From assembly GCF_036127095.1 (NCBI RefSeq), contig NZ_CP108006.1:1798001-1862000 (forward strand): DNA of 64,000 nucleotides, in the 5' to 3' direction. The stretch comes from Streptomyces sp. NBC_00335 (GTDB taxonomy: Bacteria > Actinomycetota > Actinomycetes > Streptomycetales > Streptomycetaceae). A program made the position numbers and the translations under genes. Positions within the stretch are counted from its first letter, which is position 1, and every line of letters starts with the position of its first letter. The notes beneath the pieces were generated by a model, which saw nothing but the letters and a program-made list of their open reading frames with translations, made no database searches and had not been told where the DNA came from. Positions 4,252-26,994 of the stretch are shown piece after piece.

Positions 4252-4330
4252 GCCTGGTCTTTCGCCACGTCGCGGTCCACTGCGTTGTGGTGGAGGATCG
4301 TATGGAGTCGACGGAGCGAGGTAGGTAGCG

Positions 4331-5647
4331 GTGGCCAAGAAGGACAAGCACAAGTCGGCGGGGCCGGCCGAGCCGACGGAGACGGCGAAGTCCGGGAAGG
4401 GCACCAAGCCCGGCAAGGGCGAGAAGGCGAAGGCCGGGGCGTCGGCCAAGCCGGCCAAGGCCGAGAAGCCCGAGAAGGCGGAGAAGGCCGAGAAGGCGGA
4501 GGCCAAGGCAAGGGCCGAGGCCGCCGGCTCCGAGAAGCCCGCCAAGGTTCCGAAGGCCCGCAAGGCCCCCAAGGCCGCCCCCGAGAAGCCCGCCGAGCCG
4601 GCCGCGCCCGCCAAGGGCGAGAAGGCTGCCAAGGCGGAGAAGCAGACCGACCCCGCTGCCGCCACCAGCGGCGGCGGGAAGCCGAAGTCCAAACCCCTCT
4701 CCCTCCGCGAGCTGCTCCGCATCTCCGCCGAGAGCTCCAAGGGCTCCAAGGGCGGCGCCCGCAAGGCCGGAGGCCACGGGCACGGACCCGGGTACGAATA
4801 CGGGTACGACGCCCCCCTGAGCCCCCTGCTCCGCGTCCCCTCCGGCGAGCGCGTCGACCTCGGGGCCTTCCATCCCGGAGCGACCCCGGCCGGTCCCACC
4901 GACAAGGCGGCCGGCGTGGCGGCCACCGCCCAGATGGGTGAACGGCTCGCCTCCCTCCAGGAGCGGCTCTACGCCGCCAGCACCGCCGGCGACCGCCGCC
5001 GCGTCCTGCTCGTGCTCCAGGGCATGGACACCAGCGGCAAGGGCGGCACCGTCAAGCACGTGATCGGCCTGTTCAACCCCTCCGGCTGCCGGATCAAGGC
5101 CTTCAAGGCACCCACGTCGGAGGAGCAGAACCACCCCTTCCTCTGGCGCATCATGAAGGCGCTCCCCCAGCCCGGCGAGATCGGCATCTTCGACCGTTCG
5201 CACTACGAGGACGTCCTCATCGCCCGCGTCCGCGACCTGGTGCCGCGCAGTCAGCTGGGCCGCCGCTACGCGCAGATCAACCGGTTCGAGAAGTCCCTCG
5301 CCGACGACGGCGTCAGCGTGGTGAAGGTCTTCCTCCACATCGGCTACGAGGAGCAGCGCAAGCGGCTCCTGGAGCGGCTCGACAACCCGGACAAGCACTG
5401 GAAGTTCAACACGGGCGACATCGAGGAACGCTCCATGTGGCCCGCGTACCAGCAGGCGTACGAACTGGCCCTGGAGCGCTGCTCCACGGACGCCGCGCCC
5501 TGGTACGTCGTCCCCTCGGACCGCAAGTGGTACCGCAACTGGGCGATCAGCAAACTGCTGCTGGAGCATCTGGAGGGCCTCGCGCCGCAGTACCCGAAGG
5601 GTGACTTCGACGTGGAGGAGTGCCGCACCCGTCTGCTTGCCACATAG
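4331..5647 (+). CDS. ppk2: Polyphosphate kinase 2 with a long lysine-rich N-terminal tail
   Basis: This PPK2-family kinase has 438 residues. PPK2 enzymes move phosphate between polyphosphate and nucleotides; class and direction cannot be read from sequence alone. The catalytic domain covers about residues 190-438, with Walker A GMDTSGKGG (231-239), a GIFDRSHYEDV lid/Walker B segment and the C-terminal SDRKWYRNWAISKLL helix. The first 130 or so residues are almost wholly Lys, Ala, Pro, Glu and Gly in KAEKPEKAEKAEKA-like runs, resembling histone H1-like tails, and are absent from typical 250-300-residue PPK2s. The GTG start follows a GAGGTAGGTAG ribosome site. The next gene begins 17 bases after the stop but has its own AT-rich promoter-like sequence. 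Confidence 0.92.
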   Translation: MAKKDKHKSAGPAEPTETAKSGKGTKPGKGEKAKAGASAKPAKAEKPEKAEKAEKAEAKARAEAAGSEKPAKVPKARKAPKAAPEKPAEPAAPAKGEKAAKAEKQTDPAAATSGGGKPKSKPLSLRELLRISAESSKGSKGGARKAGGHGHGPGYEYGYDAPLSPLLRVPSGERVDLGAFHPGATPAGPTDKAAGVAATAQMGERLASLQERLYAASTAGDRRRVLLVLQGMDTSGKGGTVKHVIGLFNPSGCRIKAFKAPTSEEQNHPFLWRIMKALPQPGEIGIFDRSHYEDVLIARVRDLVPRSQLGRRYAQINRFEKSLADDGVSVVKVFLHIGYEEQRKRLLERLDNPDKHWKFNTGDIEERSMWPAYQQAYELALERCSTDAAPWYVVPSDRKWYRNWAISKLLLEHLEGLAPQYPKGDFDVEECRTRLLAT

Positions 5648-21433: not shown

Positions 21434-21577
21434 ATGATGCGCATTCGTACCGCCCAGGCCGCCGCGGTCTTCACGCTCACCCTCGTCACCGCGCTGTTCG
21501 CCACCGGCACCGCCACCGCCGCGCCTGCCCAGTCCGCCCCCAGCACCACGGCGCAGGACAACATGGGCTGGCAGTAG
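21434..21577 (+). CDS. Small secreted peptide, possible signal peptide or pheromone precursor
   Basis: This 47-residue product has a basic start (MMRIRTAQ), a hydrophobic core and an Ala-x-Ala cleavage site (ATAA), leaving a mature peptide of about 17 residues ending in DNMGWQ. It has no cysteine. AGGAACC lies 11-14 bases upstream of the two adjacent ATGs. Position next to a LuxR-type regulator and a small conserved protein suggests a peptide-signalling module, but this is inference. It is too short for most gene finders. Confidence 0.6.
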   Translation: MMRIRTAQAAAVFTLTLVTALFATGTATAAPAQSAPSTTAQDNMGWQ

Positions 21578-21697: not shown

Positions 21698-23167
21698 ATG
21701 AAGCCCATGGCACACCTGGGGGTGGGCATCGGCTGGCGGCCGGAGATCGCGGGGGCGGTGGAAAGCCTCCCGGGCTTGGACTGGGTCGAGGTCGTGGCGG
21801 AGAACATCTGTCCCGGCCACCTGCCCGAGTCCCTGGAGCGGCTGCTCGCACGCGGGGTCCGCGTCGTGCCGCACGGGGTCTCGCTGGGCATCGGCGGCGC
21901 CGACCGGCCCGACCCGGCGAAGCTGGCCGCGCTCGGGGAGCGGGCGGTGGCGCTGGGGGCGCCGCTGGTCACCGAGCACATCGCCTTCGTACGGACCTCC
22001 TCGGTGGCGCCGGGGCCGGTGCTCGAAGCCGGGCACCTGCTGCCCGTGGCGCGGACCCGGGACGCGCTGGACGTGCTCTGCGAGAACGTACGGATCGCTC
22101 AGGACGCGCTGCCGGTGCCGCTCGCGCTGGAGAACATCGCGGCGCTGGTGTCGTGGCCCGGGGAGGAGCTCACCGAGGCGCAGTTCCTGACCGAGCTGGT
22201 GGAGCGGACCGGGGTGCGGCTGCTGATCGACGTGGCCAACCTGCACACCAACCGGGTCAACCGGGGGGAGGACCCGGTCGCCGTGCTGGACGGGATCCCG
22301 CTGGAGGCGCTGGCGTACGTGCACGTCGCCGGGGGCGTGGAGCGGGGTGGGGTGTGGCACGACACGCACGCGCATCCCGTGCCGGCCGCGGTGCTGGAGG
22401 TGTTGGCGGAGCTCCGGTCCCGCGTGGATCCGCCCGGGGTGCTGCTGGAGCGGGACGACGACTTTCCGTCTGACGCGGAGCTGGCCGGTGAGCTGGCCGC
22501 GATCCGGGGCGTGCTGGGCGGCCCTGCGGGGGCTGTCCCCTACCCGCCCTTCGACCGTTCCCCGGGCTCCGCCCGGACCCGCGCCTCAAACGCCGGCGAG
22601 GCTGAATCGGGGGCCACCCCCGTCCGCGCCTCGGACGCCGGCGGGGCTGAATCGGGGGCCACCCCCGTCCGCGCCTCGGACGCCGGCGGGGCTGAATCGG
22701 GGGCCGCCCCCGTCCGCGCCTCAAACGCTGGCGAGGCTGGATCGGGGAGCGGGCTCGACGCCGCTCGGACGCGGGTCGGGATCGGGCAGGCCGCGCTGTT
22801 GTCGGCGTTGGTGGCCGGGACTCCCGTGCCCGAGGGGTTTGACCGGCAGCGGGTGCGCGTGCAGGCGCGGGCGCTCGCGGCCAAGCGGGCCGGGGTCGTG
22901 GCGAAGCTGGCGCCCGAGCTGCCCGGGATCCTGGGCGGGGAGGACGCGTACCGGGAGGCCTTCCTCGGCTATGCCCGGCAGCGGCCCATGACGGCCGGGT
23001 ACCGGCGCGACGCGCTGGACTTCGCCGAGCACCTGCTGGTCCGGGACCTGCCCGCGGACCCCGCCGCCCGGCGCCGGCTCACGCTCTGGTGGCGGGACCG
23101 GGCCGGGGCCCGGCCACCGGGCCGGGCCGTGCGCTGGGCCCGCGCCCTGGTGGGGAGGGCGGCGTGA
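21698..23167 (+). CDS. DUF692 multinuclear-iron enzyme fused to a C-terminal partner domain
   Basis: This 489-residue protein has a DUF692 TIM-barrel (about residues 4-280) and a separate C-terminal helical domain (about 365-489). DUF692 enzymes such as MbnB and TglH use two or three iron ions to modify peptide cysteines. Probable ligand motifs are all present: [60 protein letters not shown] and LLERDDDFP. Between the domains is a low-complexity linker made of 15-residue repeats. I recall the C-terminal domain as the SCO6045-like type; it may replace the separate partner (like MbnC) that DUF692 enzymes need. ATG after GAGGGGAC. It is coupled by GTGA to the next gene. Confidence 0.88.
22583..22747 (+). 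repeat. 45-bp tandem repeat inside the DUF692 gene
   Basis: Three full 45-bp units (22583-22627, 22628-22672, 22673-22717) and a partial fourth (to 22747) encode repeats of the type [15 protein letters not shown] in the interdomain linker. Each unit begins with GCCTCAAACGCCGGCGAGG or a close variant, which I recognise as the core of a dispersed palindromic repeat common between Streptomyces genes. Its unit length is a multiple of three, so the frame is kept. Confidence 0.85.
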
Positions 23168-24231
23168 ACTTCTTCGACTTCCTCGCCGTGGCCGTCTGGA
23201 TCGGCGTCATCGCCTCCAGCGTCGTGCTCGTGCGCGGCCTGCGGCAGTCGCGGCCGCCCGCCCTCGGCCCCGCCCCGCGTCTGCACGACCTGTCCGAGGC
23301 CGCCTTCATGGCCGGTGGACCGGGCGCGGTGGTGGACGCCGCGCTCGTCTCGCTGCTCTGCGACGGCCGGATGCTGGTCGGCGGGCCCGGCATCGTCCAG
23401 GTACGGCCCGGGGTGCGGGGCGGCGACCCCGCCCAGCGGGCCGTGCTCCAGGCCTGCCAGGGCGCCCCGTCCGGGTGGCTGTACCAGATCCGCTACGCCG
23501 CCATGCGGGACCCGTCCGTGCAGGAGACCGGCGACGCGCTGGCCGACCGCGGGCTGATCGCCACCCCCGGCGGCCGGCACCGCTGGCTGCGCCACGGGGT
23601 GATCCAGGCCGTGGTGTGCGGGGTGCTGCTGGTCCTCTCGCTGCCGCTGTCCTTCGTCGCCTTCGTGCTCCAGGAGGGGGCCGGGTCGGTCCGGGTGCCG
23701 TTCATCGCCGAGGTGCTGCCCGTGCTGCTGGGCGGCATCATCGCCGGCACCGTCGGCGCCTCCCGCGCCCGGCAGCGGATCACCCCGGCGGGGGCCGCGG
23801 CGCTGCGCGCCATCCGCGCCCACTACGGGGCCGACCAGAGCCCGTACGTCCAGACCTCGCTGTTCGGGCTGCGGGGGCTGCGGGATCCGTACCTGCGCGA
23901 GCAGTTGGTGCCGGCGGCCCGCGGGACCCGGCTGGCGGCGGCCCAGTCCCGCGGGCGTTCCGCAGGCTCCGACTCCTCCTGGGGCTCCGGGGCCGAGATG
24001 ATCCCGGTCGTCTGGTGCGCGGGTTCCGACGGCGGCGGATCCGGCGGGTCCGGCGGGTCGGGCTGCGGCTCCTCGGGGTCGGTCTGCGGGTCCTCCGGGA
24101 GCAGCTGCGGGGGCGGCGGGTCCAGCGGTTCGAGCTGTTCCAGCAGCTCGGGCGGATCGAGTTGCTCCAGCAGCTCCAGTGGATCGAGTTGTAGCAGTTC
24201 GTCCAGTTCCAGCTGTGGCAGTAGTTCCTGA
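23164..24231 (+). CDS. TIGR04222-type membrane protein with Cys/Ser/Gly-rich tail
   Basis: This 355-residue protein has an N-terminal membrane span ([20 protein letters not shown]), a cytosolic-looking middle domain with [20 protein letters not shown] (the TIGR04222-type start), two further spans (about 145-195) and a tail from about residue 278 made of Ser, Gly and Cys. Eight cysteines lie in the tail: one in VVWC, then seven separated by 6, 6, 9, 8, 8 and 7 residues. The GTG overlaps the DUF692 stop (GTGA), so the pair is translated together. DUF692 partners are usually cysteine-containing peptides, so the tail is a plausible substrate. That is inference; metal binding is an alternative. 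Confidence 0.82.
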
Positions 24232-24315: not shown

Positions 24316-25107
24316 ATGTTCTGGGTCCTGTTCCTCCTCCTTGCCTGGGCAGGGCTGCTGATCGCGTGCACCCGCCTGCTGAAGGCCGCCGCCGAACTGG
24401 CGGAGCCCCCGCCGGGCAGTGCCGTGCGCCACGACCACCACTCCGACGAGCTGAACCTGTACGAGGCCGCCTACCTGGCCGGTGGCCCGGAGCGGGTGGC
24501 CGAGCTGACGCTGCTGTCGATGCAACGCCAGCGGCGGCTGCTGCTCGCGCACACCGGCTGGGCGACGGTGGTCGACCCGGTGGGCCGCGATCCGCACGAG
24601 TGCTCGGTGCTCGGCGCGTTCGGGCCCGACGGGCAGGAACCGGTGACCTCCGTACGGGCCTTCGCGGCGCGGGATCCGGCCGTACGAGCCCTCGCGGACC
24701 GGCTCTCCGAAGCCGGGCTCGCGCTGCGCGACGGGGCCCAGCAGGAGGTACAGGCAGGGATCCGGGCGGTCCGGCAGGCCACCTTGCTGGTCCTCGGCAT
24801 GCTGGTGGCCGCCCTGTGCGTACCCGAACCGGGGACCACGACCACGATGATCCTGTGCTGGTTCGCGCTGCCGCTGATCCTCGCCCTGGGCTGCCTGGCC
24901 ATAGCCCGCGTCGAGGGGCACGCGCAGTCCGGATGGGCCTCCCCGGCCGGCCGGCGGCTCCTCGTGGAGCTGGGCCGGGAGCGCGGTGTGCGGGGCTCGC
25001 TCACCGCGGTGGCGCTGCGGGGGCCGCGCGCGGTCCCCGATCCCGAGCTGCGGGCGGCGCTGACGTACGGCAAGCGGGGGCGGATCCCGCGGCAACGGGG
25101 GCATTGA
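24316..25107 (+). CDS. TIGR04222-type membrane protein without the cysteine tail
   Basis: This 263-residue paralogue of the upstream membrane protein has one N-terminal span (MFWVLFLLLAWAGLLIACTR), the matching LNLYEAAYLAGGPERVAELT motif and two later spans (about 155-200). It ends in a basic stretch without the Cys/Ser/Gly tail. The pair may form a membrane complex in which only one member carries the modified tail. It lies 84 bases after the first copy and may have its own leaderless promoter. The function is unknown. Confidence 0.78.
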   Translation: MFWVLFLLLAWAGLLIACTRLLKAAAELAEPPPGSAVRHDHHSDELNLYEAAYLAGGPERVAELTLLSMQRQRRLLLAHTGWATVVDPVGRDPHECSVLGAFGPDGQEPVTSVRAFAARDPAVRALADRLSEAGLALRDGAQQEVQAGIRAVRQATLLVLGMLVAALCVPEPGTTTTMILCWFALPLILALGCLAIARVEGHAQSGWASPAGRRLLVELGRERGVRGSLTAVALRGPRAVPDPELRAALTYGKRGRIPRQRGH

Positions 25108-25188: not shown

Positions 25189-26994
25189 ATGCGCATGCCC
25201 CGGGTGCCCGCCACGGTCGCGCTGGCCGCCCTGGCGCTGGCCGCTTCCTTGCCGATGACCTCCGGCGCCGAGGCCGCCGCCGGGACCGCTCCCCCGGGCC
25301 CTGTGCGGGTGGCCGCGGGCCCGGCCTCTTCGGGCCCCTCGCCTGCGGGCCCCTTGCCCCCGGGCCCCGCCGCCACCGCCCGGTTGGCCGCGGAGGCCGC
25401 CGGGGCCGACCTCGTGGCCCGGCGGGCCGCTGCCGTCGCCGCGCTCGCGGGGCTCCCGGGCCCGGCCGGGGTGTCGCCGCCGGAACGTCAGCACGCCCGC
25501 GACGGGCTGGAGTTCGGGCCGTGCCCCGTCTCCGAGGGACTCGGGCCCGACGTGCGGTGCGGCACGCTCCGCGTCCCGGTCGACTACGCCCGGCCCTTCG
25601 GGGCGCAGACCGCGATCCTCGTCAGCCGGGTCGCCGCGACCGGCGCGGGCGGGGCCCGGCGGCAGGGTGCGCTCGTGTACAACCCCGGCGGGCCGGGCGG
25701 CAACGGGCTGTTCTTCCCGCTCGTCGCCGGCCTGCCCGAGTGGCGCCGCGTCGGGGCCGCCTACGACCTCGTCGGCTACGCCCCGCGCGGGGTGGGCCGC
25801 TCGGGGCGCCCGCTGTCCTGCCAGGACCCCGAGCGGTACGACCGGGCCCCGGCGGAGGCGGCCGGCGCGCGGCCGGACGCCGCCGCGAAGGAGACCCGGA
25901 TCGCCGCCGCGCGGGCCTACGCCCGCGGCTGCGGTGAGCGGGCCGGGGCGGCCCTGGGCTCGTACACGACCCTGAACAACGTCCGCGACCTGCACGTGCT
26001 GCGTGCCGCGCTCGGCGAGGGCCGGCTGACCTTCATGGGGGCCTCGTACGGCACGTACCTCGGTGCGGTCTACGCCACCCTCTACCCCGGCCACGTCCGC
26101 CGGATGGTCTTCGACTCGGCGGTCGACCCCGACCCGGACAAGGTCTGGTACCGCAACAACCTCGCCCAGGCCCCCGGCTTCGAGCGGCGCTGGGCCGACT
26201 TCCGCGCCTGGGCGGCCCGCCACCACGCCGTGTACGGGCTCGGCTCCACCGCCGAGGCGGTGCAGGCGAGTTACGACCGGGTGCGGGCGGCGGTGGCCCG
26301 CGAGCCGGCGGGCGGGGTGGTCGGCACCGGACAGCTGCACTCCGCGTACTTGCGGGCCGCGTACTACGACGAGGTCTGGCCGGGCCGTGCGGCGGCCCTT
26401 GCGGCGTTCCTGCGCGGCGACCCGCGCCCGCTCCTCTCGCTCGCCGCCCCGGACCCGTCCGCGGCCGTCGAGGGCGAGAACGCGACGGCCGTCTACACGG
26501 CGACCCTGTGCAACGACGCCCCGTGGCCCGCCGACTGGGAGAGCTGGGACCGCGACAACACCGAACTGGCCCGCACGGCCCCCTTCGAGACCTGGGCCAA
26601 CGCCTTCCTGAACCTGCCCTGCGCCTTCTGGCCGGTGCGCGAACGGCAGCGCCCGGTGGACGTCGGGCCGCGGCCGGGCGCCCCGCTACCCGGGATGCTG
26701 ATCGTTGCGGCCGAGCGCGACGGTGCCACCCCGTACGGGGGCGCCCTGGAGCTCCAGCGGCGGCTCGGGCCGCGGGCCGGGCTGGTGACGGAGACGGGGG
26801 CCGGCACCCACGGGGTGGTCGGCGGACGCAATGACTGCGTGGACGCCCACGTGGAGCGGTACTTGCTGACGGGTGACACGGCAGGGTCACGTGTCACATG
26901 TGCGCCGCATCCGGAGCCCGCACCGGTGTCGCTGGACGACCGGGCAGCGACCGCCCAGGGGCACCCCAGGGCACTGCTGCCGCCAGTCGTCTGA
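25189..26994 (+). CDS. Secreted S33 tripeptidyl-aminopeptidase-like hydrolase
   Basis: This 601-residue protein is an alpha/beta-hydrolase of the Streptomyces Tap/SlpD-SlpE (S33) group, which trims peptides outside the cell. A signal peptide (about residues 1-29) is followed by a long Pro/Ala-rich propeptide-like stretch. Catalytic marks are the oxyanion YNPGGPGGNG, the nucleophile in FMGASYGTYLG, the acid region AAERDGATPYGGA and the histidine in GAGTHGVVGG. A cap region with several Cys lies between. The ATG follows GAGAGGCCCGCC. The gene ends at a convergent terminator shared with hemQ. Confidence 0.88.
   Translation: MRMPRVPATVALAALALAASLPMTSGAEAAAGTAPPGPVRVAAGPASSGPSPAGPLPPGPAATARLAAEAAGADLVARRAAAVAALAGLPGPAGVSPPERQHARDGLEFGPCPVSEGLGPDVRCGTLRVPVDYARPFGAQTAILVSRVAATGAGGARRQGALVYNPGGPGGNGLFFPLVAGLPEWRRVGAAYDLVGYAPRGVGRSGRPLSCQDPERYDRAPAEAAGARPDAAAKETRIAAARAYARGCGERAGAALGSYTTLNNVRDLHVLRAALGEGRLTFMGASYGTYLGAVYATLYPGHVRRMVFDSAVDPDPDKVWYRNNLAQAPGFERRWADFRAWAARHHAVYGLGSTAEAVQASYDRVRAAVAREPAGGVVGTGQLHSAYLRAAYYDEVWPGRAAALAAFLRGDPRPLLSLAAPDPSAAVEGENATAVYTATLCNDAPWPADWESWDRDNTELARTAPFETWANAFLNLPCAFWPVRERQRPVDVGPRPGAPLPGMLIVAAERDGATPYGGALELQRRLGPRAGLVTETGAGTHGVVGGRNDCVDAHVERYLLTGDTAGSRVTCAPHPEPAPVSLDDRAATAQGHPRALLPPVV

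Follow-up and report, generated by a model that had tools for sequence, protein, structure and literature searches.

The window analysed here, a stretch of 64,000 nucleotides from Streptomyces sp. NBC_00335 (contig NZ_CP108006.1, positions 1,798,001 to 1,862,000), encodes a DUF692 enzyme and, overlapping it, an integral membrane protein of the TIGR04222 family that ends in a serine/glycine tail with regularly spaced cysteines. We propose as the likely reading that the enzyme, which belongs to the multinuclear non-haem iron oxidases (MNIOs) and contains its own partner domain, oxidises the cysteines of this membrane-tethered, predicted cytoplasmic tail, perhaps yielding a metal buffer; the modification itself is putative. 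The observation is real and partly explained in print. Antoine et al. (2025; PMC12452194), in the portion of the text available, propose TIGR04222 tails as MNIO substrates, and the view of the pairing as unexplained, taken by the original prediction from sequence, is outdated. No treatment of the pairing beyond that paper was found in the literature on TIGR04222, DUF692, MNIO fusions and membrane anchoring. The new parts are the fusion, the topology of the tail, the co-occurrence of cysteine tails with MNIOs, and the change of anchor. MNIOs are an active field in the chemistry of ribosomally synthesised and post-translationally modified peptides (RiPPs), and the features concerned are as follows.

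21698..23167, + strand: gene of the MNIO (DUF692, MbnB/TglH/ChrH family) with fused partner domain, 489 residues
21719..22513, + strand: catalytic TIM-barrel domain, residues 8-272, placed by Pfam PF05114, invariant candidate ligands and the TglH alignment
22523..22732, + strand: low-complexity linker with a dispersed genomic repeat, placed by low per-residue model confidence (pLDDT) and by the repeat copies
22742..23161, + strand: C-terminal helical partner domain (PME-type 2, DUF2063-like), found as a separate gene 3' of unfused MNIOs
23164..24231, + strand: TIGR04222 membrane protein with cysteine tail (putative MNIO substrate), 355 residues, three predicted transmembrane (TM) helices, N-out/C-in
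24013..24228, + strand: 72-residue Ser/Gly/Cys tail (38 Ser, 22 Gly, 8 Cys), predicted cytoplasmic
24316..25107, + strand: second TIGR04222 protein (136 bits), a tail-less paralogue that serves as an internal contrast

The catalytic part of the enzyme is intact, as had been predicted. PF05114 matched residues 8-272 with an E-value of 2.9e-75 (253.4 bits against a curated cut-off of 25). Nine residues, H59, E93, H94, E145, D178, H209, D222, H224 and E251, which we take to be metal ligands, show no variation across 36 aligned sequences and are identical in all 61 MNIOs of a set of loci from the window's order together with the window; E145, D178, H209, D222 and H224 match the same residues in TglH. 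Among the NCBIfam models, BufB scored best (169.5 bits), followed by HvfB (131), ApyH (109), ChrH (41) and MbnB (32). The 9.0-Mb genome of the window (G000) contains one PF05114 match and four TIGR04222 matches, and the named relatives of the protein, among the matches listed, are Streptomyces throughout. The predicted GTGA overlap with the next gene is present, with the GTG start lying within the MNIO stop (23164-23167).

That the enzyme carries a C-terminal domain of its own agrees with a structure model comprising the barrel, a disordered linker (residues 276-337, pLDDT <50) and a confidently modelled helical domain (residues 349-488). A partner profile was built from the last 120 residues of the window MNIO and searched against 140 loci (L036-L175) and the window stretch. 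It recovered 102 partner-domain frames, 52 within MNIO frames and 50 separate, and a partner accompanies 102 of the 107 MNIO frames, fused in 52. Nearly all separate partners (49/50) are encoded on the MNIO's strand, no more than 721 bases downstream of it, and a median of 105 bases separates the MNIO stop from the domain start; those beyond this distance rule (1/50 here and 2/77) probably have an over-extended domain start. Named MNIO loci, which are the best 80 of at least 574 relatives of a 12-MNIO alignment and form a biased sample as the 12 came from TIGR04222 loci, have a partner domain in 79 of 80 cases, encoded apart from the MNIO in 77. Because unfused MNIOs are followed by a distinct gene for the same domain, the fused domain is best read as the partner, in line with the earlier suggestion; by profile similarity, the two forms are one family.

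The window domain shows the hallmarks of PME-type 2, in that it adjoins an MNIO, is helical, and is DUF2063-like without a DUF2063 signature. The same profile recognised a separate partner frame of 115 residues (from the first ATG) in Saccharothrix sp. NRRL B-16314, which agrees in strain and length with PME-type 2 model A as given in the available part of PMC12452194. A precomputed PF26136.1 assignment exists for the whole MNIO protein in the protein database; the local Pfam scan did not report it. The rows shown of a fold search with the MNIO were taken up by the barrel, with neither NGO1945 (3dee) nor TglI (8hi7) among them, and a profile search of PDB sequences with the partner domain gave no match to 3dee or 8hi7. 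Linker length ranges from 22 to 219 residues among the 52 fused MNIOs. In the window, the linker holds a repeat, CTCAAACGCCGGCGAGGCTG (22585-22739), with 130 places in the genome at no more than one mismatch, two of them here (reversed control, 0); this mobile-looking repeat is incorporated in frame within the coding sequence.

The neighbouring protein is, as described from the sequence, a membrane protein with regularly spaced cysteines in a Ser/Gly tail. It scored 118.3 bits against TIGR04222 (cut-off 43), its structure model has a pLDDT of 81, and the tail holds 8 cysteines in 72 residues. Tail statistics were taken from 120 listed homologues of 462 found. A W-C-A pattern opens the tail in 119 of 120, and the remaining one has W-C-A after a different preceding residue. 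Cysteines number 6 to 11 in 117 of 119 tails, their spacing is 6-9 residues in 665 of 733 intervals (first spacing per tail excluded), and 106 of 119 tails contain at most one charged residue. Serine in the window tail is encoded by both codon families (17 AGY, 21 TCN), which argues against DNA slippage as its origin. Together with the W-C-A start and the regular spacing, this indicates that the tail is under selection and not a product of chance. The TIGR04222 body may have a role independent of the MNIO, since three MNIO-free genomes of the order (G044, G169, G199) retain TIGR04222 solely in tail-less form. At locus L141 (about 4288-5298), the Ser/Gly/Cys tail of a TIGR04222 protein is encoded out of frame with its body, through a frame-shift or a sequencing error.

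Cysteine tails go with the presence of an MNIO. In a class-level sample of 325 genomes, TIGR04222 was found above cut-off in 84 and PF05114 in 77; within the window's order, PF05114 was present in 265 of 293 sampled genomes. We fetched all above-cut-off TIGR04222 places outside the order, one below it (G546) and two from a phylum sample, and left out the below-cut-off places in G561, G624 and G755. A cysteine tail was defined as at least two cysteines and at least 50% Ser+Gly within the last 40 residues, and an MNIO-free genome as one without a PF05114 match at E 1e-8. The profile recognised 73 TIGR04222 frames outside the order, and a cysteine tail was present in 37 of 50 frames from MNIO genomes versus 1 of 23 from MNIO-free genomes (Fisher 1.3e-8, a value overstated by kinship, as the frames are not independent). 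The sole MNIO-free case (L084) is doubtful, with two cysteines and no regular array. Where the MNIO lies at the same locus (within about 5 kb), 32 of 37 frames have the tail; where it lies elsewhere in the genome, 5 of 13 do. Two frames at L066, with 3 and 4 cysteines, failed the rule on composition, the L103 frame is partial, and one L065 frame has a cysteine-tailed sister. L068 and L076, missed by the profile and outside the count, are TIGR04222 by NCBIfam, adjoin an MNIO and have cysteine tails. At the named MNIO loci, a cysteine-tailed TIGR04222 was found in 75 of 80, the remaining five being situated at contig ends. The tail gene is downstream of the MNIO in 28 of 29 loci of the order set plus window and upstream in 32 of 32 others, and the linkage survives this changed gene order.

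The expectation that the tails always carry cysteine fails for TIGR04222 overall; what stands is that cysteine tails are largely confined to MNIO genomes. From these patterns, the tail seems dependent on the enzyme, and the enzyme not on this particular tail. A metal- or redox-active tail that works unmodified (as a disulphide, zinc or acyl anchor), with MNIO linkage through operon hitch-hiking, is very improbable. Ser/Gly/Cys low-complexity tails could on general grounds function as such, and against this, MNIO-free genomes lack regular cysteines even in Gly/Ser-rich tails (cysteine-free in L090, L094, L095 and L096), and cysteines are kept in the 5 of 13 tails far from their genome's MNIO.

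Cysteine tails were also found on a second type of anchor. Eleven MNIO loci (L105-L115), fetched for having no TIGR04222 match alongside, were scanned for other cysteine tails, and seven encode, 3' of the MNIO and on the same strand, a small one-helix protein at the following positions.

L106, 4642-4953: one-helix protein
L108, 5813-6169: one-helix protein
L109, 4211-4480: one-helix protein
L110, 2603-2899: one-helix protein
L111, 5816-6079: one-helix protein
L114, 4723-4971: one-helix protein
L115, 6131-6400: one-helix protein

These proteins consist of a few residues, one TM helix, an arginine-rich stretch and a glycine-rich tail with at least three cysteines, and measure 83-119 residues from the starts chosen in this analysis. 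Five of the seven start no more than 12 bases from the MNIO stop, and in six the frame ends 95-199 bases upstream of the partner domain. None of the seven matched TIGR04222 in NCBIfam, and the database yielded one homologue, from Pseudofrankia. At L107, a longer frame with no match in NCBIfam carries a cysteine tail; near the MNIOs of L105, L112 and L113, no other cysteine tail was found. As a similar tail sits on a one-helix protein at 7 of 11 TIGR04222-less loci, what remains beside the MNIO is, on this comparison of predicted proteins, a membrane anchor plus cysteine tail and not the TIGR04222 body. That the tails follow the MNIO and change anchor supports the earlier proposal of the tail as the likely MNIO substrate. 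The one-helix proteins could be the unexplained small proteins encoded directly after MNIOs that PMC12452194, in the part available, calls 'adjamnio-V'.

The tail is probably cytoplasmic (N-out/C-in), because the distribution of lysine and arginine places it inside in 155 of 157 cysteine-tail rows. This positive-inside vote used 228 of 325 rows aligned to the window protein, after 97 rows covering 200 columns or fewer had been dropped. Within the 157 rows, lysine plus arginine amounts to 2.3 per 10 residues after TM1, 1.9 before TM2 and 2.2 after TM3, versus 0.4 in the TM2-TM3 loop; the eight residues before TM1, a stretch outside this vote, hold 0.16 in 44 three-helix cysteine-tail frames. 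Rows without a cysteine tail (n=71) gave 57 for tail in, 8 for tail out and 6 ties. Display of the tail on the outer face, after modification in the cytoplasm and export, as envisaged in the original prediction and by Antoine et al., appears improbable. The available text of PMC12452194 predicts a periplasmic tail, the opposite of the charge vote, and reports that bufferins act in the periplasm; cruder runs in which TM helices were located per sequence were less clear (68/81 and 32/55). The charge vote in the cysteine-tail rows and the arginines directly after the helix in all seven one-helix proteins point to the cytoplasmic side, and a membrane-displayed tail is not borne out.

For the cytoplasmic tail, the following mechanism is proposed. 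The enzyme would be an MNIO carrying a PME-type 2 partner as its C-terminal domain on a flexible linker, the partner domain would present the Ser/Gly/Cys tail of the neighbouring TIGR04222 protein to the barrel, where its cysteines would be oxidatively modified. The tail would project from TM helix 3 into the cytoplasm, the compartment that houses the enzyme; with both on the same side, modification of the inserted protein would be possible. As the bufferin maturase is the enzyme's closest relative among curated models, the product may be thiooxazole-like; its use may be buffering of soft metals (copper) at the inner membrane face. According to the available part of PMC12452194, bufferins carry cysteine-derived thiooxazoles that bind copper, and an MBP-fused thiooxazole peptide bound up to four copper atoms (source among PMC12257519, PMC12668002 and PMC13174530, which, in the parts available, concern other systems); on this basis, the eight-cysteine tail could act as a tethered metal buffer. 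A more specific version, in which in-place modification at the cytoplasmic face would create a membrane-tethered multi-site chelator with a portable tail on a TIGR04222 or one-helix anchor, is tentative and falls short of even odds. It would imply an MNIO product that is neither cleaved off nor exported. No chemical modification of such a tail is reported in the portions of the literature available.

Besides the cruder topology runs and the published periplasmic placement, several findings weigh against this interpretation. The enzyme scores below the cut-off of the bufferin maturase model NF050167 (169.5 bits against 310). Three of 105 uncut MNIO frames (L071, L105, L109) have no detectable partner; L126 and L080, cut by contig ends, were left out of the 105. 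The link to DUF2063 is weak: PF09836 matched 4 of 36 domain members (E up to 10; best 9.4e-5), hhalign gave a probability of 7.5 and an E-value of 0.0047, the window domain itself matched no family, and the window's genome contains no PF09836 match. At L070, a linked MNIO-TIGR04222 pair has a tail without cysteine. No metal genes were noticed beside the pair, whose neighbours were not systematically surveyed. Finally, within the order, 16 of the 61 MNIO loci lack TIGR04222 and another 16 have one without a cysteine tail, proportions that are not representative, as the loci were chosen partly for missing TIGR04222. Among 32 genomes from the window's genus whose MNIO locus has no cysteine-tailed TIGR04222, 13 gave no TIGR04222 match anywhere (E 1e-3). 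The candidate ligands are intact despite tail loss, and a tree of 64 MNIOs needs eight changes of the cysteine-tail label, at least seven of them forced by well-supported branches (bootstrap unsettled). By this reconstruction, the cysteine-tail protein has been lost repeatedly in Streptomyces relatives that retain an intact MNIO, which argues against exclusivity.

That TIGR04222-less relatives retain the MNIO points to a second substrate, and the Streptomyces MNIO very likely has at least one further target. Another substrate as the main one, with the cysteine-tail protein as an unmodified, linked metal-binding or accessory protein such as an iron donor, is unlikely nevertheless. Many order relatives retain the enzyme without TIGR04222, with the forced label changes described above. 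On the other side stand the near-complete linkage in the named sample, the cysteine tail on another anchor in seven loci, and two negative scans within the order: no conserved small precursor was seen near the MNIO in 12 TIGR04222-less loci, and no other cysteine tail occurred among frames of at least 60 residues near TIGR04222-less MNIOs. The window's genus also contains unlinked TIGR04222-like proteins (L192, L196-L202), several with Gly/Cys tails; the cysteine-tailed ones, e.g., L192, L198 and L200-L202, are possible trans substrates of the MNIO.

Two further frames flank the pair. Just 5' of the MNIO, a 47-residue frame (21434-21577) has a signal-like N-terminus and a C-terminal NMGWQ; a motif scan did not find it upstream of other MNIOs. 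Downstream lies a gene for a TAP-like alpha/beta hydrolase (25189-26994). A cluster of frames matching it in size and position recurs at 43 of the 61 loci (order set plus window), TIGR04222-less ones included, and this neighbourhood is perhaps plain synteny.

The TIGR04222-MNIO clusters described in the available part of PMC12452194 involve the same two families, the same cysteine-rich Ser/Gly tails and the same substrate proposal. Our results are compatible with that text on the proposed substrate, on the share of TIGR04222 proteins without C-proximal cysteines (more than 1/4) and on the share of TIGR04222 genomes without an MNIO (1/3), and differ on partner and topology. Many of its clusters appear partner-less, with a split partner recognised in at least 10%, whereas here a partner was found at 102 of 107 MNIO frames and 79 of 80 named loci; the available text does not mention an MNIO-partner fusion. 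The fusion therefore bears on an open question in print, namely which partner serves TIGR04222 clusters, and supplies an enzyme that, as a single protein, lends itself more readily to testing. The tail is periplasmic in that text and predicted cytoplasmic here; if the latter is true, the published bufferin-like picture needs changing, and MNIO modification would reach beyond peptides to proteins that reside in the membrane.

The closest curated model, BufB with its PME-type 1 partner (DUF2063-RRE), likewise combines an MNIO, a helical partner and a cysteine-rich substrate. The window enzyme differs in scoring below the cut-off, in its fused partner without a clear DUF2063 signature, and in the proposed substrate, an integral membrane protein. 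TglH-TglI and MbnB-MbnC share the barrel fold (fold search) and the two-component logic. In both systems, the components are separate subunits that act on small peptide substrates, with cysteine as the known target.
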